Shown piece after piece: positions 11,349-28,282 of a DNA stretch of 40,892 bases (positions within the stretch are counted from its first letter, which is position 1; every line of letters starts with the position of its first letter). The position numbers and the translations under genes are program-made. The DNA comes from Terriglobia bacterium. GTDB lineage: Bacteria; Acidobacteriota; Terriglobia; Terriglobales; Acidobacteriaceae. The notes below the pieces were generated by a model, which was not told the DNA's origin, ran no database searches, and saw only the letters and a list, made by a program, of their open reading frames with translations. The DNA lies in assembly GCA_020073105.1 (NCBI GenBank), contig JAIQFW010000008.1, positions 1 to 40,892 of the forward strand, given 5' to 3'.

Positions 11349-11366
11349 TTGTGAGTTAGATCACAA
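11349..11366. promoter_or_regulatory. perfect Crp-type operator (site 1, tonB/crp divergent region)
   Basis: TTGTGA-GTTAGA-TCACAA is a perfect 6-6-6 palindrome matching the CRP/HcpR consensus TGTGA-N6-TCACA. Its centre is 22 bp (two helical turns) from site 2. It lies 90 bases from the tonB-like start and 138 bases before the crp start. Confidence 0.8.
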
Positions 11367-11495: not shown

Positions 11496-12218
11496 GTGCT
11501 CTCACCATACGGGCTCGACATTATCGAAAGCTGTCTGACTTGCAAGACGCGGACCGAGCGGCTCTTCTGTGACCTGCCCGGGGCGGCGTTGCAAGCGTTT
11601 GAAAACATCAAGTACGCGACCGCCTATCCCAAGGGTGCGGTGCTATTCGTGGAAGGGCAGGCCCCACGCGGCATCTTCGTGCTGTGCAAAGGCAGAGTGA
11701 AGATGTCCATCTGCGCCACCGATGGAAAGACATTGATTGTAAGAATTGCCGAGCCCGGAGAAGTGCTCGGCTTGAGCGCCGCGGTCTCCGGCAAGCCCTA
11801 CGAATTGACCGCGGAGACGATTGATCCCTGCCAGGTGAACTTCGTGAAGCGGGACGACTTCCTGCGTTTTCTCAAGGAGCATTCCGACGCCTGCTTCAAG
11901 GTCGCCGAGCAGTTGAGTGAGAAGTACAACACCGCTTGCCACGAGGTACGTTCCCTAGGCCTGTCTCATTCGGCTGGCGAGAAACTGGCTAAACTGCTGC
12001 TGGAGTGGACTTCGAAGAATGGGGAAACGGCCAAGCAGGAGCCCCGGCTACGGCTGGCGCTTACCCACGAAGAAATCGCCCAGATGATCGGTACCTCACG
12101 GGAGACGGTGACCCGGCTGTTTGCCGATCTGAAAAAACGGCAGATCGTGCAGGCCAAGGGTTCCACCTTGGTGATCCGCAACAAGGCTGCGCTGAAGCTG
12201 ATTGCCAGCAATAACTAA
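11496..12218 (+). CDS. Crp/Fnr family transcription regulator, Cys-rich N-terminus
   Basis: This 240-residue regulator has a cyclic-nucleotide-binding-type beta barrel (about 30-125), a long dimerisation helix and a winged HTH (about 165-235). The recognition helix reads GTSRETVTRL, with Arg202, Glu203 and Arg207 where CRP has R180, E181 and R185, which predicts TGTGA-type half sites. Cys 13, 16 and 25 (C-x2-C-x8-C), with 64, 73 and 112, could hold an iron-sulfur cluster as in FNR, but the spacing differs and this is unproven. The start is GTG at 11496 with AGGGGGTGA upstream. Three matching palindromes precede it. Likely the master regulator of the cytochrome region. Confidence 0.88.
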   Translation: MLSPYGLDIIESCLTCKTRTERLFCDLPGAALQAFENIKYATAYPKGAVLFVEGQAPRGIFVLCKGRVKMSICATDGKTLIVRIAEPGEVLGLSAAVSGKPYELTAETIDPCQVNFVKRDDFLRFLKEHSDACFKVAEQLSEKYNTACHEVRSLGLSHSAGEKLAKLLLEWTSKNGETAKQEPRLRLALTHEEIAQMIGTSRETVTRLFADLKKRQIVQAKGSTLVIRNKAALKLIASNN

Positions 12219-12246: not shown

Positions 12247-12264
12247 GGGTGACTGCTATCACTG
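12247..12264. promoter_or_regulatory. weak Crp-type operator before the truncated crp
   Basis: GGGTGA-CTGCTA-TCACTG keeps the GTGA-N6-TCAC core but differs in the outer positions. Its centre is 41 bases before the ATG at 12297. Confidence 0.4.
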
Positions 12265-12296
12265 TTTTTCGCGCTGCTGTGGGTTATTCAGAGGGC

Positions 12297-12794
12297 ATGG
12301 ACAGTGTCATCCAACCCAGCTGTCTCGAATGCGGGGAACGGGCCGACCGTGCGTTCTGCGATCTTCCGGCCGATACCTTGCGCGACTTCGACGGGTTGAA
12401 GTCCGTACTTGTGTATCCGCGGGGCACGGCTCTGTTTCGGGAAGGGCATGCCGCGCGGGATATCTTCGTTCTCTGCTCCGGCCGGGCAAGGCTGTCGGTA
12501 TGCTCGGAAGCCGGTAGGCGCTTGACGCTGCGAGTTGCAGGGCCCGGTGAAATTCTGGGATTGAGCGCCGCACTTGCAGGCAGTGCGCATGAGGTGACGG
12601 CGGAACTGCTGGAAAATGCCCAGGTGGCGGTGATCAAGCGCAAGGACCTGCTGCAATTTCTGCGAGGCCACCGCGAAGCCTGCCTGCAGGACGTGGGCCT
12701 GCGCAGTCAGGACCTGCACATCGCCTATGACCGGGTGCGCGCGGTCGGATTGGGCCGTGGCCGACGGTGCCGGACAGTGGCGCGAGTGCACTAA
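12297..12794 (+). CDS. Crp/Fnr-type sensor domain lacking the DNA-binding domain
   Basis: The 165-residue product is clearly paralogous to the preceding regulator through the sensor barrel and dimer helix. It keeps C-x2-C-x8-C (CLECGERADRAFC), FVLC, SVC and the segment RVAGPGEILGLSAAL. It ends at RVRAVGLGRG followed by about 11 unrelated residues, exactly where the winged HTH should begin. I found no HTH in the other frames downstream. The start at 12297 has AGAGGGC upstream. It could be a decaying duplicate or a stand-alone sensor that forms heterodimers with the full-length protein. The intact sensor part and its own RBS mildly favour retained function. Confidence 0.75.
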   Translation: MDSVIQPSCLECGERADRAFCDLPADTLRDFDGLKSVLVYPRGTALFREGHAARDIFVLCSGRARLSVCSEAGRRLTLRVAGPGEILGLSAALAGSAHEVTAELLENAQVAVIKRKDLLQFLRGHREACLQDVGLRSQDLHIAYDRVRAVGLGRGRRCRTVARVH

Positions 12795-12943: not shown

Positions 12944-12963
12944 CTTGTGACAGATATCACAAG
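12944..12963. promoter_or_regulatory. perfect Crp-type operator before the decaheme cytochrome/porin genes
   Basis: CTTGTGA-CAGATA-TCACAAG is a perfect palindrome with the same TTGTGA/TCACAA arms as site 1 of the crp gene. Its centre lies about 95 bases upstream of the cytochrome ATG at 13049, compatible with class I activation at a promoter some 30-50 bases from the start codon. Confidence 0.8.
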
Positions 12964-16332: not shown

Positions 16333-16350
16333 ATGTGATACACATCACGG
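16333..16350. promoter_or_regulatory. Crp-type operator before the 11-heme cytochrome
   Basis: ATGTGA-TACACA-TCACGG matches TGTGA-N6-TCACA with one mismatch at the outer right position. It lies after the terminator and about 115 bases before the ATG at 16457. Confidence 0.65.
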
Positions 16351-16456: not shown

Positions 16457-18508
16457 ATGGCTAGGGGATCCAACCCGGCGGTCAAGAGGCTGGCACTGAT
16501 AGCGGTAGGTATCGCGTGGTTTTGCGTGGCTGCGGCTGCCGCTCGAAAACCCTCCGCCAAACCCACGAACGAAGACTGCTTGGCCTGTCACGGGGATTCG
16601 ACCCTGACCCACGAAGTAAACGGCAAACCGGCCAGTCTCTATGTGAATCCCGACAAGTTCAAGGAATCGATGCACGGCAGCATGTTTCAGTGTGTGGACT
16701 GCCATACCGACCTGAAGAGCGCCGCGCATGAGACCACCCCAGCCAAGGTTTCCTGCGCGACCTGCCACGCGGACCAACAGGCGGTATACGAGCGCAGCTT
16801 CCATGCCACCGCCATCAAAGCCGGCGACGGGCAGGCCGCGACTTGCGTGGATTGTCACGGGAGCCCGCACGAACTGCTGGCTGCCGGCGATCCCAAATCC
16901 AAAGTGAACCATGCCAACATTCCGGCGACGTGCGGCGCCTGTCACGGCCAGAAGTTCGTGATGGAGGCCAGTGGACACAGTGCGCAGATGTTTCTTTCCT
17001 ATCAGGAGAGCGTTCACGGGCGTGCGGTGGCCGCCGGGTCAGAAAAGGCTGCGGTCTGCACCGATTGCCACGGGGCGCACGAAATTCTCGCCGCCAGCGA
17101 TCCAAGGTCCACGATTTTCAAGTTCAATGTTCCGGCCACCTGCGCCAAATGTCACGGGCCGGTGCAACAGGAGTTTGCCCAGAGCATTCACGGGCAGGCG
17201 ATTGCACGCGGTAACGGGCTAGCGCCGGTCTGCACGGATTGCCACGGAATTCACTCCATCAAATCGCACCTCGACCCGAACTCCACGGTGTCCACTCAAA
17301 ATCTGGCGCGCGTGACCTGCGCACGATGCCATGAAGGGGTGCGGCTGTCGCGGGAGTTTGGCATCGCCGGCAGCCGGGTTTCGACCTATCTGCAGAGCTA
17401 TCACGGTTTGGCGTCCGAGTTGGGCTCGCAGGTGGTAGCTAACTGCGCGAGTTGCCATGGCGTGCATAACATTCTGCCCTCGAGCGATCCACGGTCCACC
17501 ATCAACCGCGCCAACCTGGTCCAGACCTGCGGCCAGTGCCATCCCGGCGTGACCGAAAAGTTTGTTGCCGCCAAGGTGCATGTGGACGCGCCGCTCTCCG
17601 CCGACACCGGGAGCATCGCGGTGCGCTGGATTCGCAAGTTTTATCTCAGCCTCATCCTGGTGGTCATCGGCGGGATGGTGCTGCACAACCTCATCATCTG
17701 GCGCCGCAAAGCCATCCTGCGGCGCAGCGCTGAACATCGCCTGGTGACCCGCATGACCCGGAACCAACGGGTCCAGCACCTGCTGCTGCTCTCCAGCTTC
17801 TTCGTGTTAGTGCTCACAGGATTTGCCCTCAAGTTCCCGGGTTCCTGGTTCGCCGAGCTTCTGGGAATGGGAGAACGGGTGCGCGGCATTGTCCATCGGG
17901 TCGCGGCTGTCATCCTGATCGGGGCGGGTTTCTACCATATCTTCTACCTTGCCCTGAGTCATCAAGGGCGCCGGCTCATCAAGGACTTCCTGCCCATTCC
18001 CAAGGACGCCACCGACGTATGGCGGACACTCGCCTACTACTTCGGTATCGGACCCGAAAAGCCTCAGTTTGCCCGCTTCAACTACGCCGAAAAGGCAGAG
18101 TACTGGGCGCTGGTCTGGGGTCTGTTTGTGATGGCGGGTACGGGTGTCATGCTCTGGGCGAAGGTTTTCGTCGGAAACCTGTTGCCACGCTGGTGGCTCG
18201 ACGTAGCCACGGCCATCCACTTCTACGAGGCGGTTCTGGCCACGCTCGCCATTGTGGTATGGCACTTCTACCAGGTGTTTCTCGATCCCGATGTCTATCC
18301 CATGAACTGGGCGTGGTGGGACGGAAAGATGTCCTTTGAGCACTATCGCGAAGAACATGGGCTGGACGCTGCTACCTTGTTCGAAGCCGCCAGTGCGCAA
18401 CCTCTGGAACCGGAGGTGCGGGAGGTCGAAGTTGGCGCGGCGGAACAACCGGTGGACGGCAACCCGGCAGCGGCAAGAGACGCCGATCAGGTCAATCCTC
18501 GCAAATGA
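16457..18508 (+). CDS. 11-heme cytochrome c fused to a cytochrome b561-like membrane domain
   Basis: The 683-residue product has a signal/anchor helix (about 10-30). A periplasmic domain with eleven CxxCH motifs follows (CLACH near 41 through CGQCH near 358), spaced in pairs with repeated CTDCHG and 'SDPRST' segments. The C-terminal half has about five transmembrane helices with several His residues suited to b-heme ligation (LHNLIIW, IVHRVAA, GFYHIFY, AIHFYEA, VWHFYQV), as in the b-type gamma subunits of formate dehydrogenase and Ni/Fe hydrogenase. I infer a quinol-oxidising inner-membrane module that passes electrons straight into its own c-heme chain. The start at 16457 has GAGGGA upstream. 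Sites for quinone binding are not identifiable by eye. Confidence 0.85.
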   Translation: MARGSNPAVKRLALIAVGIAWFCVAAAAARKPSAKPTNEDCLACHGDSTLTHEVNGKPASLYVNPDKFKESMHGSMFQCVDCHTDLKSAAHETTPAKVSCATCHADQQAVYERSFHATAIKAGDGQAATCVDCHGSPHELLAAGDPKSKVNHANIPATCGACHGQKFVMEASGHSAQMFLSYQESVHGRAVAAGSEKAAVCTDCHGAHEILAASDPRSTIFKFNVPATCAKCHGPVQQEFAQSIHGQAIARGNGLAPVCTDCHGIHSIKSHLDPNSTVSTQNLARVTCARCHEGVRLSREFGIAGSRVSTYLQSYHGLASELGSQVVANCASCHGVHNILPSSDPRSTINRANLVQTCGQCHPGVTEKFVAAKVHVDAPLSADTGSIAVRWIRKFYLSLILVVIGGMVLHNLIIWRRKAILRRSAEHRLVTRMTRNQRVQHLLLLSSFFVLVLTGFALKFPGSWFAELLGMGERVRGIVHRVAAVILIGAGFYHIFYLALSHQGRRLIKDFLPIPKDATDVWRTLAYYFGIGPEKPQFARFNYAEKAEYWALVWGLFVMAGTGVMLWAKVFVGNLLPRWWLDVATAIHFYEAVLATLAIVVWHFYQVFLDPDVYPMNWAWWDGKMSFEHYREEHGLDAATLFEAASAQPLEPEVREVEVGAAEQPVDGNPAAARDADQVNPRK

Positions 18509-18540
18509 GCCGGTTAGGATCTTGGATTTTGCGCCCACAT

Positions 18541-18558
18541 GAAGGACAATCATCCTTC
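18541..18558. promoter_or_regulatory. perfect palindrome before the NapC-like gene
   Basis: GAAGGA-CAATCA-TCCTTC is a perfect inverted repeat with the same 6-6-6 geometry as the Crp-type sites but unrelated arms. It lies in the 106-base gap between the 11-heme gene and the NapC-like gene. It could be an operator or a small mRNA hairpin. Confidence 0.35.
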
Positions 18559-18614
18559 CTCAGTAAACATTAATGACGGTTACGAGCTAGACCTGTGGTC
18601 AACGGAGAGAACGA

Positions 18615-20153
18615 ATGAGCCCTGAAGATTCCAAGCCGCATTCCAGCCGGCATGTCGTGCGAAACCTGCTGCGCATGATGCTGCGCAACGCCGTCAGCCT
18701 GGCGGGCGTGGCGTTGGCTCTGGTCAGTCTGGCCAACTTCTTCTTCCTGTTTCTCATCGATCTGATCTCCGAGCGGCCCAGTCCTTATGTGGACATTCTT
18801 GCCTACATGGTGGCGCCGGCATGTCTGATTTGCGGACTGGTACTCATTGCCATCGGGCTGTGGTGGGAGCGGCGAAAGAAGATTGAGGAAGTGGCGGAAT
18901 TTCCCCGCTATCCGAGGATTGATCTCAACGACCCCAATCAGCGTAGCGCGGTGGCATTCTTCGCCAGCTTTCTGGGGGCTTTTGTCATGCTGAGCGCGGT
19001 GGGAAGCTACAAGGCCTACGAGTTCACGGATTCGGTGCAGTTTTGCGGACAACTCTGCCACTCGGTGATGAACCCGGAATTCACCGCCTACCAGCTCTCG
19101 CCGCATGCGCGAGTGGCGTGCGTGGAGTGTCACGTGGGCTCAGGCGCTACCTGGTATGTGAAGTCAAAACTATCGGGAGCCCGCCAGGTTTATGCCACGC
19201 TATTCAAGACCTATCCGCGTCCTATTCCGACGCCCGTCCATGACCTGCGGCCCGCGCCGGACACCTGCGAGGAGTGTCACTGGCCGCAGCGCTTCTACGG
19301 TGCCCAGCTCAAGGTCTTCACTCACTATGCCAACGACGAGAAGAACACGCCCCTCCAGGTTCGCATGCTGCTGAAGACCGGGGGTGGCGATCCCAGCACC
19401 GGAGCACCCTCGGGTATCCATTGGCACATGAACATTTCGAACGAGATCACCTACATCGCCAGCGATGATCGGCGCCAGACGATCCCCTACATCCATGTCA
19501 AAGACATGCAGGGACGGATCACCGAGTACATGTCCAAAGATGCGCCCCCGACCAAGGAGCAGATCGAGAAGCTGCCGCGGCGGCGGATGGACTGCGTCGA
19601 TTGCCACAACCGGCCGACGCACATTTACGTTCCGCCGGACCGGGCGGTGGATGAGTCGCTGCAGGCGGGACGTCTGGATGTCACTCTGCCCTACATCAAG
19701 CAGCAAGCGGTCACGGTACTTGCCAAGACGTACAGCACCACCGAGGCCGCTATGGAAGGCATCGCCACCGATCTGCACGAGTTCTATACCACCAAGTACC
19801 CGGAGATCGACAAGAGCCGGCAGGAAGACATCCGCCACACAATTGGGGAAGTACAGCGCATCTATCGCAGCGCGACTTTCCCGGAGATGAAACTGGACTG
19901 GAAGACCCACCCCAACAACATCGGACACTTCTACTACACCGGCTGTTTCCGCTGCCACGACGGCCAGCACGTGAGCTCCGATGGCCGCATGATCCGCAAA
20001 GACTGCGACATCTGCCACACGGTCCTGGGACAACAGGAGGGGGCGACGCGCATCATTTCGGCGGAGGGATCAGCGTTCAAGCACCCGGTCGATATCGGCG
20101 ACCTCACCCAGGTGAGCTGCAGCGATTGCCATACGGGAGGGGTGGGGCCGTAA
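18615..20153 (+). CDS. membrane-anchored NapC/NirT-like heptaheme cytochrome c
   Basis: The 512-residue product has three predicted transmembrane helices (about 25-50, 60-84, 112-132) and a periplasmic domain with six CxxCH motifs (CVECH, CEECH, CVDCH, CFRCH, CDICH, CSDCH). The first heme site, residues 144-149, is CGQLCH, a CX3CH motif. It is followed by SVMNPEFTAYQLSPHARVAC, the arrangement of NapC/NirT-type quinol dehydrogenases of metal-reducing bacteria. Such proteins take electrons from menaquinol and donate them to periplasmic cytochromes. The ATG has GGAGAG upstream. With the preceding 11-heme protein it offers two quinol entry points to the decaheme conduit. Confidence 0.88.
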   Translation: MSPEDSKPHSSRHVVRNLLRMMLRNAVSLAGVALALVSLANFFFLFLIDLISERPSPYVDILAYMVAPACLICGLVLIAIGLWWERRKKIEEVAEFPRYPRIDLNDPNQRSAVAFFASFLGAFVMLSAVGSYKAYEFTDSVQFCGQLCHSVMNPEFTAYQLSPHARVACVECHVGSGATWYVKSKLSGARQVYATLFKTYPRPIPTPVHDLRPAPDTCEECHWPQRFYGAQLKVFTHYANDEKNTPLQVRMLLKTGGGDPSTGAPSGIHWHMNISNEITYIASDDRRQTIPYIHVKDMQGRITEYMSKDAPPTKEQIEKLPRRRMDCVDCHNRPTHIYVPPDRAVDESLQAGRLDVTLPYIKQQAVTVLAKTYSTTEAAMEGIATDLHEFYTTKYPEIDKSRQEDIRHTIGEVQRIYRSATFPEMKLDWKTHPNNIGHFYYTGCFRCHDGQHVSSDGRMIRKDCDICHTVLGQQEGATRIISAEGSAFKHPVDIGDLTQVSCSDCHTGGVGP

Positions 20154-20597: not shown

Positions 20598-20615
20598 CAG
20601 TGACAAGCATCACTG
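20598..20615. promoter_or_regulatory. Crp-type operator before metF
   Basis: CAGTGA-CAAGCA-TCACTG is a perfect palindrome with the GTGA-N6-TCAC core but different outer bases from the TTGTGA arms. Its centre is 73 bases before the ATG at 20680. Confidence 0.6.
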
Positions 20616-20679
20616 CCCGAGGTGCTTAACCCTGCTCCAATGAATCAGCCCACGTTCACGACTCGTGGGAGGCCTGCCA

Positions 20680-22269
20680 ATGAGCGCCGCCGGAGGCAAT
20701 CCGAGCCCGAATTTCTTGAGATGGGCACTCGAAAACGGTGAATTCGTGTGCACAGCAGAACTCGTGCTGGGGCGCGATCACAACGTAGCGGAATCCGAAG
20801 CGTTTGTGAAGGAGGCTTCTCAGCAGGTGGATGGGATTAAGGTGATCAGCTTGACAGACCTTCCAGGAGGGAATCCCGCTCTTCCGCCGGAAGCGTTTGT
20901 ATCCTGTGTCCGCGAGCACAACCTCACGCCGATCGCGCATCTGACGGGCAAGGACGGAAACCGCTCCTTCCTCGAGGCGCGGCTTCACGGGCTGGCCCGT
21001 CTGGGCGCGGAGAACATCCTGGCCTTGACGGGTGACGCACAAAAGGCGGGATTCGCCGGGAAGTCGAAGCCCGTTCACGATCTGGATTCTGTGCTCATTC
21101 TTCGGCTGCTGCGCGCCTTACGCGATGGTCTCGAGTACAACCTGGGACCGAAAACAGTACGCAGTGCACCCTTTGACTTCTTTGCGGGCGCAGTCGTGAA
21201 CCCCTATAAGGTCCGCGAACCAGATCTCTTGATGCAACTCTACAAGCTGCGGCTGAAGGTGGCAGCGGGCGCGCAATTCATCATCACCCAGCTGGGATAC
21301 AACCTGCGCAAGCTTTACGAGTTGAGGCAATACATGGGCAGGGAGGGCATTGGCCATGTCCCGGTGTTGGCCAACGTATATGTCCCCACCGCCGCCATCG
21401 CTCAGATGATGCGGGCTGGTGAAATAGCGGGCTGCGTGATCCCGGATGAGCTCATTAAACGTCTGCAAGGCGAGAAAAAGCCTCAGCGCCTGGAACGCGC
21501 TGCATTAATGGTAGCTGCGGTGAAAGATCTGGGATTCGCCGGCGGCCATCTTGGCGGATTCGGTCTTACCCACCAAGACTTCATGACCATCATCGAGCGA
21601 GCATCCGCCATTGGTAGGGATTGGCGCGGGCGGATGGATGAACTGGTGTTTCCGTGGCCAGAGGAATTCTACCTTTTGCCTCCAGGCACGAACGGTCTCA
21701 GCGACAACGCAGCTGAGTACCAGATTACTCATGCCAAGCCGTATCCTTCTTTGGTTCAGTGCCTCTCCGAAATGGCGTACCGGCATTTCATAAGAGAGGG
21801 CTCGCCTGGGGCGCGCCTCTTTAGCGCAAAGTTCAAGGCCGCGAGCCAGCCCACCAACGGCGATTCTTCGCGGCACACCCTTTGGCACAGGTTGCTTGGG
21901 CCCTCGACCCTTTACCGGAAGGCTGCTTTTGGCTGCGTCAGTTGTGGGGACTGTATACAGGATTATCTCAACTATGCCGGGTGCTCCATGGGCGGGTGCT
22001 ACAAGGAATTGCGCAATGGTCCCTGCGGTGGGTCGCGAGTGAATGGAAACTGCGAGGCCCGGTCTGATCTGCCCTGCGTTTGGAGCCAGGTTTACCAGGG
22101 CACGCTTGCCATGGGCGACGATCCCGGCAAGTTTGCTCACGTCCTAATCCCTCCCCGCGACTGGAGCCTGGATCGCACAAACGCGCTGGCCAACCGTTTC
22201 GCAGGTCGCGATAACTTCGGCAAGAGAATTGATCTTCGCAATACAACAGAGGACACGAAAACATGCTGA
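20680..22269 (+). CDS. metF: methylenetetrahydrofolate reductase with fused MetV-like Cys-rich C-terminal domain
   Basis: This 529-residue protein has an N-terminal MTHFR (beta/alpha)8 barrel of about 300 residues (AELVLGRDHNVAES, ILALTGDAQKAG, AQFIITQLGYNLRKLYELRQ). A C-terminal domain follows with about nine Cys (CVSCGDCIQDYLNYAGCSMGGC, then NGPCGGSRVNGNCE and LPCVW, about 418-470), matching the MTHFR C-terminal/MetV domain that binds zinc or iron-sulfur in acetogens. It reduces methylene- to methyl-tetrahydrofolate. In acetogens the two parts are usually separate subunits; here they are one chain. GGGAGG precedes the ATG. It overlaps the next gene by seven bases, so translation is coupled. 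Confidence 0.85.
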   Translation: MSAAGGNPSPNFLRWALENGEFVCTAELVLGRDHNVAESEAFVKEASQQVDGIKVISLTDLPGGNPALPPEAFVSCVREHNLTPIAHLTGKDGNRSFLEARLHGLARLGAENILALTGDAQKAGFAGKSKPVHDLDSVLILRLLRALRDGLEYNLGPKTVRSAPFDFFAGAVVNPYKVREPDLLMQLYKLRLKVAAGAQFIITQLGYNLRKLYELRQYMGREGIGHVPVLANVYVPTAAIAQMMRAGEIAGCVIPDELIKRLQGEKKPQRLERAALMVAAVKDLGFAGGHLGGFGLTHQDFMTIIERASAIGRDWRGRMDELVFPWPEEFYLLPPGTNGLSDNAAEYQITHAKPYPSLVQCLSEMAYRHFIREGSPGARLFSAKFKAASQPTNGDSSRHTLWHRLLGPSTLYRKAAFGCVSCGDCIQDYLNYAGCSMGGCYKELRNGPCGGSRVNGNCEARSDLPCVWSQVYQGTLAMGDDPGKFAHVLIPPRDWSLDRTNALANRFAGRDNFGKRIDLRNTTEDTKTC

Positions 22270-23057
22270 TCATTGGTGAGCTCATCAACTGCACTCGCAA
22301 AAAGGTCGGGGAAGCGGCCCAAAAGAGAGATGTGGAATTCTTCAAAGACCTGGCCCGAAGGCAGGCCGGTGCGGGAGCCAACATGCTGGATGTTAATGGC
22401 GATCTTCCAGGCCAGGACGGGGAGCTTCTAAGTTGGCTGGTGAATCTCATTCAAGACGAGGTGGAGATTCCTCTCTGCCTTGACAGTGCCGACCCGAAAG
22501 CTCTGGTCAAAGCGCTTCCCCTCTGTAAGCGGAGACCGATGGTCAACTCGATCAGCGACGAGCCCGCACACTGGGCCATGCTGCCGGCGCTCAAGGAACA
22601 CCGTCCAAAGGTGATCGCATTATGCATGTCCGAATCCTGCCTGCCCACCGGAGTAGAGGACCGGGTTGCCACGGCCAGCCGGATGATCGATCGTCTCGCA
22701 GCAGAAGGTTTCGCGCTGGACGACATTCATGTGGACGCTTGTGTGTTGCCGGTTGCCACCGGGCCCCATGGCCAAAACCTGCTGTCCGCCATCGGGCAAA
22801 TTGTGGCAAGGTATCCGGGCGTTCACATCAGCGCGGGAGTGAGTAATGTCTCCTTTGGCCTGCCGCTTCGCAAGTTGCTGAATGAGGCCTATCTCGTACT
22901 CTTGATGGCGTGTGGACTCGATACAGCAATTGTCGATCCCTGCGACCAGCAGTTGATGCTGAATGTGATGGCGGCAGAAGCACTGCTGGGTCGCGATGCG
23001 CACTGCAAAAACTATCTGCGCGCTTATCGGGAGGGGAAGTTGGCCCAGGTCGCCTAG
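22263..23057 (+). CDS. AcsE-like methyltetrahydrofolate:corrinoid methyltransferase
   Basis: The 264-residue product is a pterin-binding TIM barrel. Residues Asp74 (LCLDSADP), Asn95 (VNSIS), Asp158 (HVDACVLP) and Asn195 (GVSNVSFGLP) fall where the methyltetrahydrofolate-binding residues of AcsE/MeTr lie. Length matches MeTr. These enzymes move the methyl group of methyl-H4folate to a corrinoid protein, or the reverse. The overlap with metF shows a two-gene unit for methyl transfer. No corrinoid iron-sulfur protein, CO dehydrogenase/acetyl-CoA synthase or O-demethylase gene is in the window, so the methyl acceptor is unknown. Cytoplasmic. Confidence 0.85.
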   Translation: MLIIGELINCTRKKVGEAAQKRDVEFFKDLARRQAGAGANMLDVNGDLPGQDGELLSWLVNLIQDEVEIPLCLDSADPKALVKALPLCKRRPMVNSISDEPAHWAMLPALKEHRPKVIALCMSESCLPTGVEDRVATASRMIDRLAAEGFALDDIHVDACVLPVATGPHGQNLLSAIGQIVARYPGVHISAGVSNVSFGLPLRKLLNEAYLVLLMACGLDTAIVDPCDQQLMLNVMAAEALLGRDAHCKNYLRAYREGKLAQVA

Positions 23058-26145: not shown

Positions 26146-26163
26146 TAGTGATCAAAATCACAG
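26146..26163. promoter_or_regulatory. Crp-type operator (site A) before the radical SAM gene
   Basis: TAGTGA-TCAAAA-TCACAG keeps the GTGA-N6-TCAC core. Its centre is 22 bp from site B, the same spacing as sites 1 and 2 at the crp gene. Confidence 0.6.
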
Positions 26164-26167
26164 CTGC

Positions 26168-26185
26168 ACGTGACAATAGTCACGG
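26168..26185. promoter_or_regulatory. Crp-type operator (site B) before the radical SAM gene
   Basis: ACGTGA-CAATAG-TCACGG keeps the GTGA-N6-TCAC core and lies about 107 bases before the ATG at 26284. The region is shared with the divergent Rieske gene, which may also be controlled. Confidence 0.6.
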
Positions 26186-26283
26186 CTGGGATGTTCGTGC
26201 CTTCTCTATCGTTAGGTCCAGGGGTGAAAAGCAGTTTCCCCAGGTTCGACCAGCACCAGGTTCAGCAGGGAAGGAGACCGCCG

Positions 26284-27543
26284 ATGGCTTCGGGCAATGG
26301 CAACGGACCCGCACAGGGTGAGAACAAGCCGCGCTTGATCTTCTGGGAAGTCACTAAGGGTTGCAATCTCCGTTGCATTCACTGCCGGGCCAGCGCGACC
26401 GAACTGAGCGCTCCCAGCGACCTCTCGACTCACACCGCCCTGGGAATCATCGATCAAATTGCTGAGGCGGCCAACCCCATCCTGGTGTTGAGTGGAGGAG
26501 AGCCGCTGTACCGCTCCGATATTTTTCAACTGGCACGCTATGCCACCGATAAGGGACTGCGCGTCGCCTTGGCTACGAACGGGACGCTGGTCACCAAAGA
26601 AGTGGCGCGCATGATTGTCGACGCCGGCGTGAAGCGGGTCTCGATCAGCTTGGATGGAGCTGATCCCACGACTCACGACACCTTCCGCGGTATTCCGGGC
26701 GCATTCGAGGCGGCGGTGCAGGGTTTACGGAACCTCAAGAGGCTCGGCATGTCGGTGCAGATCAACATGACCATTGCCCGCCACAACGCCAAGCAACTTC
26801 CCGAGGTTTTGCGATTGGCGAAGTCACTGGGCGCGGATGCGCTACACACCTTCCTGCTGGTGCCGGTGGGCTGCGGTGTGGACATCGCCGCTGACCAGAT
26901 GGTGCCCCCGGAAGAGTACGAGAAGATGCTGAACTGGTTCTACGACGAGTCACTCAAGGGTGGTATCGAACTGAAGGCCACCTGTGCCCCGCACTACTTC
27001 CGAGTGGTACGGCAACGGCGCGCTGCCGAGCGTCGGTCAGCAGAAGCGGCGGCGAGGGCAGCAGCGGCGAGCACGCCGGATCCCTCTGCCATTGGTCCGA
27101 CGGACACCTTGATGCCCGGAGGCACGGGCATTTCGCTGCGGCCGCAGGCCCATCCTGCCGGCAATCACACGGGCCATCCTAGCGGACATCCCTCTGACAT
27201 GAATGCCATGACCAAGGGGTGCCTGGCCGGTACGGGCGTGTGCTTTGTCTCGCACGAAGGCGAGGTTTTCCCCTGCGGATACCTGCCAGTGATCGCCGGT
27301 GATCTGCGGAAGCAGAAGTTCATCGACGTCTGGCAAGACGCTGAAGTGTTCAACGCGCTGCGCGACACCGGCAATCTGAAAGGGAAGTGCGGCTGCTGCG
27401 AGTTCCGCAACGTATGTATGGGCTGCCGCGCTCGCGCCTTTGCCGCTACCGGCGACTATCTGGACGAAGAGCCGTTCTGCGTCTACCAGCCCAAGATGAG
27501 CAAACCGGAGAAGAAGCGAGAGGCTCCGGTTGGCGTGCGCTAG
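26284..27543 (+). CDS. radical SAM/SPASM protein, AhbD/NirJ-like
   Basis: The 419-residue product has the radical SAM cluster motif C-x3-C-x2-C at Cys27, 31 and 34 (TKGCNLRCIHCRA), the SAM-binding LSGGEPL and a C-terminal SPASM-type Cys region (CFVSHEGEVFPCGY, then CGCCEFRNVCMGCRARAF and FCVY). The layout resembles AhbD and NirJ, which modify heme or heme d1 precursors. A tetrapyrrole role suits a heme-rich region but is inferred. Between the domains is an unusual insert (about 250-300), Ala/Arg-rich then His/Gly/Pro-rich (HPAGNHTGHPSGHPS). The start at 26284 has AAGGAGA upstream and excludes an in-frame extension through the two Crp-type sites. Confidence 0.82.
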   Translation: MASGNGNGPAQGENKPRLIFWEVTKGCNLRCIHCRASATELSAPSDLSTHTALGIIDQIAEAANPILVLSGGEPLYRSDIFQLARYATDKGLRVALATNGTLVTKEVARMIVDAGVKRVSISLDGADPTTHDTFRGIPGAFEAAVQGLRNLKRLGMSVQINMTIARHNAKQLPEVLRLAKSLGADALHTFLLVPVGCGVDIAADQMVPPEEYEKMLNWFYDESLKGGIELKATCAPHYFRVVRQRRAAERRSAEAAARAAAASTPDPSAIGPTDTLMPGGTGISLRPQAHPAGNHTGHPSGHPSDMNAMTKGCLAGTGVCFVSHEGEVFPCGYLPVIAGDLRKQKFIDVWQDAEVFNALRDTGNLKGKCGCCEFRNVCMGCRARAFAATGDYLDEEPFCVYQPKMSKPEKKREAPVGVR

Positions 27544-27571
27544 CAGAGTTGGCCTTCGCTACAATGCCAGT

Positions 27572-28282
27572 ATGTCGGAGGCCAAGGCAAAGCCCAGTCC
27601 AGCAGCTACTCTCTCCAGGGTTGCGATTTTCTCCGGGCTCGCTGAGAGCGAATTGAGTTTCCTCGCGCAGCGGACCGTGCCGCGTCACTACAGCCCCGGG
27701 GAGCTGGTTTTCAGCGAGGGAGAACCGTGTACCGGGTTGTACGTCGTCGAGTCTGGGCATATTCGCATTTTCAAAAGCTCGGCCAATGGCCGCGAACAGG
27801 TGTTGAGTATCGACGGTCCGGGCAGTTCCGTGGCTGAGCTGCCGGTCTTCGACGGTGGCAACTACCCCGCATCGGTTTCAGCGGTCGATGAGGCCACCCT
27901 TCTCTTCGTCAGCAAGCAAGATTTCCAGTCGTTGTGCTTGGCGCATCCCCAGGTAGCCTTGAAGGTGCTGCGCGTGGTTGGGGCACGGCTGCGGCGCCTG
28001 GTGGGGATCATTGAAGAACTTTCCTTTACCACGGTGCGCCACCGCCTGGCGGCATTCCTGTTGCGCTCGGCGCAACGCGAGGGAAAACACACGGCGAACG
28101 GCCTTGAGCTGACGCTGCCGGTAAGCAACCAGGAACTGGCGTCACAGATTGGCACAGTGCGCGAGCTGGTTTCGCGAAATCTCAGCCGGTTGCAGGCAGA
28201 AGGCCTCATTCACATGGACGGCCGCAACATCGTGATCCCGAATCCGAAAGCCCTCGAAGCTGAACTGAAAGATGCCGAATAG
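27572..28282 (+). CDS. Crp/Fnr family transcription regulator (third)
   Basis: This 236-residue regulator has a cNMP-binding-type barrel (about 15-125), a dimer helix and a winged HTH (about 155-225). The recognition helix is GTVRELVSRNL with Arg197, Glu198 and Arg202 in the CRP specificity positions, so it could bind the same type of palindrome as the first regulator. It lacks the N-terminal Cys cluster. It resembles regulators of nitrosative or anaerobic stress and is followed at once by an RIC (ScdA/YtfE) remnant, a pairing common in NO-response loci. No clear ribosome-binding site precedes the ATG at 27572; TACAAT at 27562-27567 would give a very short leader. Confidence 0.85.
   Translation: MSEAKAKPSPAATLSRVAIFSGLAESELSFLAQRTVPRHYSPGELVFSEGEPCTGLYVVESGHIRIFKSSANGREQVLSIDGPGSSVAELPVFDGGNYPASVSAVDEATLLFVSKQDFQSLCLAHPQVALKVLRVVGARLRRLVGIIEELSFTTVRHRLAAFLLRSAQREGKHTANGLELTLPVSNQELASQIGTVRELVSRNLSRLQAEGLIHMDGRNIVIPNPKALEAELKDAE

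Follow-up and report, generated by a model that had tools for sequence, protein, structure and literature searches.

A fused metFV gene and an adjoining methyltransferase gene as a probable half of a dispersed corrinoid-dependent demethylation pathway in a Terriglobia genome

The metFV-MT2 gene pair of this Terriglobia bacterium lies in a stretch of 40,892 nucleotides (hereafter the window), and we consider it likely that it supplies the steps that accept and oxidise the methyl group in a corrinoid-dependent demethylation pathway, the first half of which is encoded on another contig, C305. This reading draws on family identities, key residues, genome content, co-occurrence, shared operator-like sites and the clustering of the genes at single loci in relatives. 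A sequence-only reading of the window had offered three roles for the pair, and methyl oxidation, fed by an MttB-family corrinoid methyltransferase, is the best supported of them. The system looks like a recently described type of pathway in scattered form and not like an acetogen route that has broken down. It would extend to Terriglobia a corrinoid demethylation and methyl-oxidation pathway recently shown in marine alphaproteobacteria, and in place of an acetogen-type interpretation it offers one that can be tested. It also exposes a concrete gap, namely the upkeep of the corrinoid where, as in the sampled MttB-bearing genomes of this family, the activator RACo is absent.

In the proposed pathway, MttB (the MT1, on C305) would transfer a methyl group from a methylated substrate to a stand-alone corrinoid protein; candidate substrates are glycine betaine, other quaternary amines and further methylated compounds. 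MT2 would then pass the methyl group from the corrinoid protein to tetrahydrofolate (giving CH3-THF), and MetFV would oxidise CH3-THF to CH2-THF, which would enter the one-carbon pool. The whole would stand under a Crp/Fnr-type regulon shared with the local cytochrome genes. The order of steps follows the Ruegeria pomeroyi model (PMC12478193), and we infer both the direction of flux and the substrate.

Table 1 Features of the window relevant to the gene pair, with their positions.
Feature	Position	Strand	Basis or context
Perfect palindrome CAGTGA-CAAGCA-TCACTG, candidate Crp/Fnr-type operator	20598..20615	.	core 80 bp upstream of metFV ATG
metFV: methylenetetrahydrofolate reductase (MTHFR) fused to a Cys-rich C-terminal domain of MetV type, 529 aa	20680..22269	+	PF02219 + PF12225
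MT2: methyltetrahydrofolate:corrinoid-protein methyltransferase, 264 aa	22263..23057	+	PRK07535, D/N/D/N residues, PDB 4o0q
Crp/Fnr-family regulator with N-terminal C-X2-C-X8-C, candidate regulator	11496..12218	+	PF00027 + PF13545; upstream GTGA-N6-TCAC sites at 11351 and 11422
Second complete Crp-family regulator, other candidate	27530..28282	+	PF00027 + PF13545
Palindrome core	12947..12960	.	87 bp upstream of decaheme cytochrome gene (13034)
Palindrome core	16335..16348	.	35 bp upstream of multiheme/cytochrome b561 gene (16370)
Two palindromes	26148..26183	.	between Rieske/cytochrome b genes (-) and AhbD-like heme-synthesis radical SAM gene (+)

The gene pair and the acetogen enzymes

The claim that a MetV-type Cys-rich domain shares a chain with the MTHFR was borne out: from the ATG at 20680, one open reading frame of 529 codons holds both the MetF domain (PF02219, 81 bits) and the MetV-type domain (PF12225/DUF5981, 62 bits). 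The MTHFR catalytic Glu, Asp and Gln, whose positions we take from established knowledge of the family, are aligned and present, and the alignment shows eight Cys in the MetV domain that are kept in close relatives. MetFV therefore has both marks of a MetVF-type MTHFR, the MetF catalytic residues and the Cys-rich MetV domain.

The next gene, overlapping metFV by 7 bases, had been called AcsE-like and credited with all four folate-binding residues. The overlap and the residues (D75, N96, D160 and N199, all present) stand, and the AcsE specificity does not. Every MT2 that we compared, and the MetH folate domain as well, has the same D/N/D/N set, so these residues indicate a methyl-THF methyltransferase and not AcsE specifically, and MT2 falls far below the CODH/ACS-specific NCBIfam model NF040758 (123.5 bits vs a cut-off of 370). 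MT2 matches Pterin_bind and exceeds the cut-off of NCBIfam PRK07535 (280 vs 259 bits). Its best PDB match is 4o0q (192 bits, 38% identity), with AcsE entries at 135-144 bits, and AcsE proteins of known structure form a clade apart from it in a subfamily tree that is only partly supported.

MT2 does belong to the AcsE superfamily and is 34% identical to Moorella AcsE, which would suit a Wood-Ljungdahl methyl branch surviving as a remnant or in altered form, with AcsE function. Besides the missed model and the separate clade, genome content speaks against this explanation. We searched the genome of the window (G000; a 5.14 Mb draft, 97.6% complete and 1.2% contaminated) with profiles family by family, and neither acetyl-CoA synthase (CdhC, PF03598) nor the corrinoid iron-sulfur protein CFeSP (CdhD, PF03599) had a match, which agrees with the sequence-only reading in placing the pair in a genome without acetyl-CoA synthase. 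CdhC is likewise absent from the related genome G283 and from that of Terriglobales JOPF126 (L083), the closest relative found and the only one that came from a scan of genome contigs. We therefore rejected the AcsE/Wood-Ljungdahl role, which we regard as highly improbable.

Partner genes in the genome and in relatives

The genome encodes a single stand-alone corrinoid protein (PF02607 + PF02310), on C305 at about 19120-19785, which exceeds the TIGR02370 cut-off. Its only MttB-family gene (PF06253; about 17658-19115) follows the corrinoid gene in a two-gene operon. This MttB is below the NCBIfam trimethylamine cut-off and scores alike against several PDB entries. The genes around the operon match those flanking its orthologues in G283 (77% identity), so C305 is not an obvious contamination. 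The metFV-MT2 and corrinoid-MttB halves are unlinked in both genomes; in G283, metFV-MT2 stands alone with corrinoid-MttB elsewhere, and all are 74-77% identical to the genes of the window's genome.

In other relatives the two halves come together. JOPF126, whose MT2 is 85% identical to that of the window, has within about 10 kb corrinoid and MttB genes (minus strand), formate-THF ligase (Fhs), a cNMP-binding gene, metFV, MT2 and then a second MttB. The neighbours in G015 run Fhs (divergent), metFV, MT2, DUF1638, corrinoid protein and RACo. In six genomes of family f5, metFV-MT2 (MT2 about 69-74% identical) sits beside RACo, corrinoid, DUF1638, URO-D or homocysteine (Hcy)-methyltransferase genes, some of the contigs being short and showing only part of the locus. 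In G109, Fhs alone accompanies the pair. Fhs was not found in the window's genome.

Across a class sample of 299 genomes, DUF5981 occurs in 44, RACo in 61 and MttB in 32. The MT2 subgroup was found in 9 of them, and MttB accompanies it in 7 of these 9 vs 25 of the 290 others (Fisher 2.6e-6, relatedness not corrected). All 9 have MttB and/or RACo, so the pair was not seen there in genomes devoid of corrinoid proteins, an outcome that would have counted against the sequence-only reading. Several genomes of the window's own family have corrinoid-MttB genes without a DUF5981 match, which shows the two halves to be separable; another methyl acceptor may serve there. A literature search for Acidobacteriota trimethylamine methyltransferase with methyltetrahydrofolate gave no match.

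Known corrinoid demethylation systems use a reductive activator, RACo/RamA. Profile PF14574 for this activator matched nothing in the window's genome, nor in any of the 8 further members of its family in the class sample that carry MttB. This is the least expected feature of the system, and an unrecognised activator or a loss of function could explain it.

O-demethylation, another of the roles first offered, found no support. The genome has one strong URO-D family match, probably HemE, and one divergent protein, and we found no corrinoid gene in the ~3.5 kb read around the latter. An O-demethylase with a URO-D MT1 was set aside on this basis.

The third role, corrinoid-dependent methionine synthesis of the Dehalococcoides type, would have MT2 and the corrinoid protein running in reverse to form a split methionine synthase, for which MetFV would provide the CH3-THF. 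Homologous operons in f5 do place MT2, corrinoid protein and RACo next to a homocysteine S-methyltransferase that stands alone, and in Ruegeria both functions are served by the corrinoid protein and by MtgD (PMC12478193). Nevertheless, the window's genome encodes a second MTHFR, about 640 residues long (contig C269), and the C-terminal part of MetH with its B12-binding and activation domains, the N-terminus being cut by a short contig. Most relatives, too, have one MTHFR that long, and we therefore read the C269 protein as the presumed housekeeping, bifunctional Hcy-methyltransferase/MTHFR type. With these genes present, methionine synthesis does not explain the metFV-MT2 pair. Most relatives likewise have MetH C-terminal domains and a second MTHFR, the corrinoid protein here is paired with MttB and not with an Hcy methyltransferase, and the metFV-MT2 module is accessory at 9 of 299 genomes. 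Overall, we disfavour this role and hold it to be unlikely. A literature search for Dehalococcoides methionine synthesis with CFeSP gave no match.

Two further operon types were noticed among the relatives. MT2 is accompanied by a stand-alone homocysteine S-methyltransferase at L115, L116, L119, L120 and related loci of f5, several of which add corrinoid protein and RACo; the set resembles a split methionine synthase. At L123 and L125-L131 (families f4, f6 and f7), a MetF-MetV fusion follows a gene of ~480 residues and a MetE-like gene of 333 residues, with no adjacent MT2; in L125 the 483-residue product has no Pfam match and the 333-residue product matches Meth_synt_2. The f4/f6/f7 arrangement is possibly an alternative methionine synthase operon.

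Operator-like sites and the multiheme neighbourhood

The Crp-type palindrome previously noted ahead of the pair is indeed present and perfect (Table 1). The window has 8 copies of its core, GTGA-N6-TCAC, vs 0.91 expected from shuffles, with none of 100 shuffles reaching 8. The genome as a whole has 194 cores, a density at which 1.54 would be expected in the window (p=2e-4). Seven of the eight window sites precede the gene of the first Crp-family regulator, the decaheme gene, the cytochrome b561 gene, metFV or the AhbD-like/Rieske pair, and the remaining one overlaps the start of a second Crp-like gene. This gene (12249-12794) adjoins the first regulator gene, keeps the cNMP-binding domain, is missing the helix-turn-helix and has a GTGA-N6-TCAC beginning at its first codon; it looks like a truncated duplicate. 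The two complete Crp-family proteins of Table 1 are candidates for the regulator, which we infer to be of Crp/Fnr type.

The same core is found 60 bp upstream of the corrinoid gene on C305, which places matching operator-like sites before both halves. Its distance ahead of the corrinoid operon (in the window's genome, G283, G256, G268 and G004) or of the DUF1638-corrinoid-RACo genes (in G015) is 43-83 bp; this location is conserved across several related genera, and G328 too has a core upstream of a corrinoid gene. At the family loci, which were picked around corrinoid genes so that the count tests site position and not genome-wide exclusivity, 10 of 283 called genes have a site no more than 120 bp away. 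Seven of the ten are the first genes of corrinoid or DUF1638-corrinoid operons, two are divergent neighbours of such operons and one is divergent from Fhs in G283. No such operator was found before metFV in G283 or JOPF126, or before the corrinoid operon of G181, G113 or JOPF126.

The pair might be a functional part of the adjacent multiheme electron conduit, with methyl oxidation as its dedicated electron source, an explanation compatible with the demethylation pathway preferred here. The palindrome shared by metFV with the decaheme, cytochrome b561 and AhbD-like genes is consistent with it, and a non-NAD acceptor is plausible given that an acetogen MetVF-type MTHFR does not use NADH and takes ferredoxin electrons in vitro (PMC9430772). 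However, the cytochrome adjacency is not conserved in JOPF126, G283 or the f5 genomes, and decaheme genes abound in the class whereas the pair is rare. A DmsE-type decaheme exceeds the cut-off in 191 of the 299 genomes, so its presence is uninformative on a link to the pair, and the correlation with the multiheme cluster that had been suggested as a check was rejected on this ground. Of the earlier proposal that the pair feeds the conduit, the common palindrome thus remains, and the neighbourhood falls away because homologous pairs in relatives have no cytochromes nearby. The multiheme link consists of shared regulation and of an adjacency seen here only and not conserved. Transfer of electrons from MetFV to the co-regulated cytochromes is a possibility, and we judge a dedicated role in the conduit unlikely.

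Similarly tentative, and in our view improbable in its full form, is a scheme in which an oxygen- or redox-responsive Crp/Fnr-type regulon would tie RACo-independent corrinoid demethylation to the multiheme conduit: methyl groups of soil osmolytes would be oxidised via MetFV, electrons would leave via the cytochromes, and another partner would reactivate the corrinoid. Beside the Rieske and cytochrome b genes, we also noticed a radical SAM/SPASM protein (26170-27543) that comes close to the AhbD heme b synthase family in score (476 bits against a cut-off of 500); the start of its gene has two palindromes.

Comparison with known systems

MT2 shares its fold family and D/N/D/N folate residues with AcsE/MeTr of acetogens (PDB 1f6y, 2e7f, 2yci), but it differs in clade, in failing the CODH/ACS-specific model and in occurring without CFeSP or ACS. 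Its best structural match, the methyltransferase of 4o0q/4o1e/4o1f, has identical folate residues; these entries are labelled DHPS in the PDB, and we take them to be a Desulfitobacterium hafniense O-demethylase component. Unlike in that system, no O-demethylase MT1 partner was found for MT2, and the operon context is another one. H4F binding in CdmA, a chloromethane methyltransferase, has been modelled on the ligands of these structures (PMC13222342).

The MetVF-type MTHFR of Sporomusa ovata, which uses ferredoxin and not NAD(P)H in vitro (PMC9430772), likewise combines MetF with a Cys-rich MetV. In contrast, MetFV is a single fused chain, has no adjoining Hdr/Mvh genes and probably works in the oxidative direction.

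The closest parallel is MtgBCD with MetF2 of Ruegeria pomeroyi, a pathway model tested by genetics and proteomics (PMC12478193, PNAS 2025). There MetF2, encoded beside mtgD, was the most differentially synthesised protein on N-osmolytes, strongly increased, and was proposed to oxidise methyl-H4F. Corrinoid, DUF1638, MetV, MetF, MT2 and RACo-type (ASKHA) genes also occur together on S. meliloti pSymB (L181), a Paracoccus plasmid and an Azoarcus plasmid, and MttB adjoins the cluster on the first two. Similarity to the compared plasmid and Ruegeria proteins is only 28-42% overall (for the alphaproteobacterial proteins, MttB 28-30% and MT2 34% identical), so the substrate cannot be transferred from those systems. 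Unlike in Ruegeria and on pSymB, MetF and MetV are fused here, each half lies on a contig of its own with a matching palindrome before it, the genome has classical MetH domains, and RACo/RamA (PF14574), which the f5 genomes and G015 have, was not found in the window's genome. What the window's genome shares with Ruegeria and pSymB is an MttB-family MT1, a stand-alone corrinoid protein and a PF00809 methyltransferase (MT2) paired with an adjoining metF paralogue, here distinct from the C269 MTHFR.
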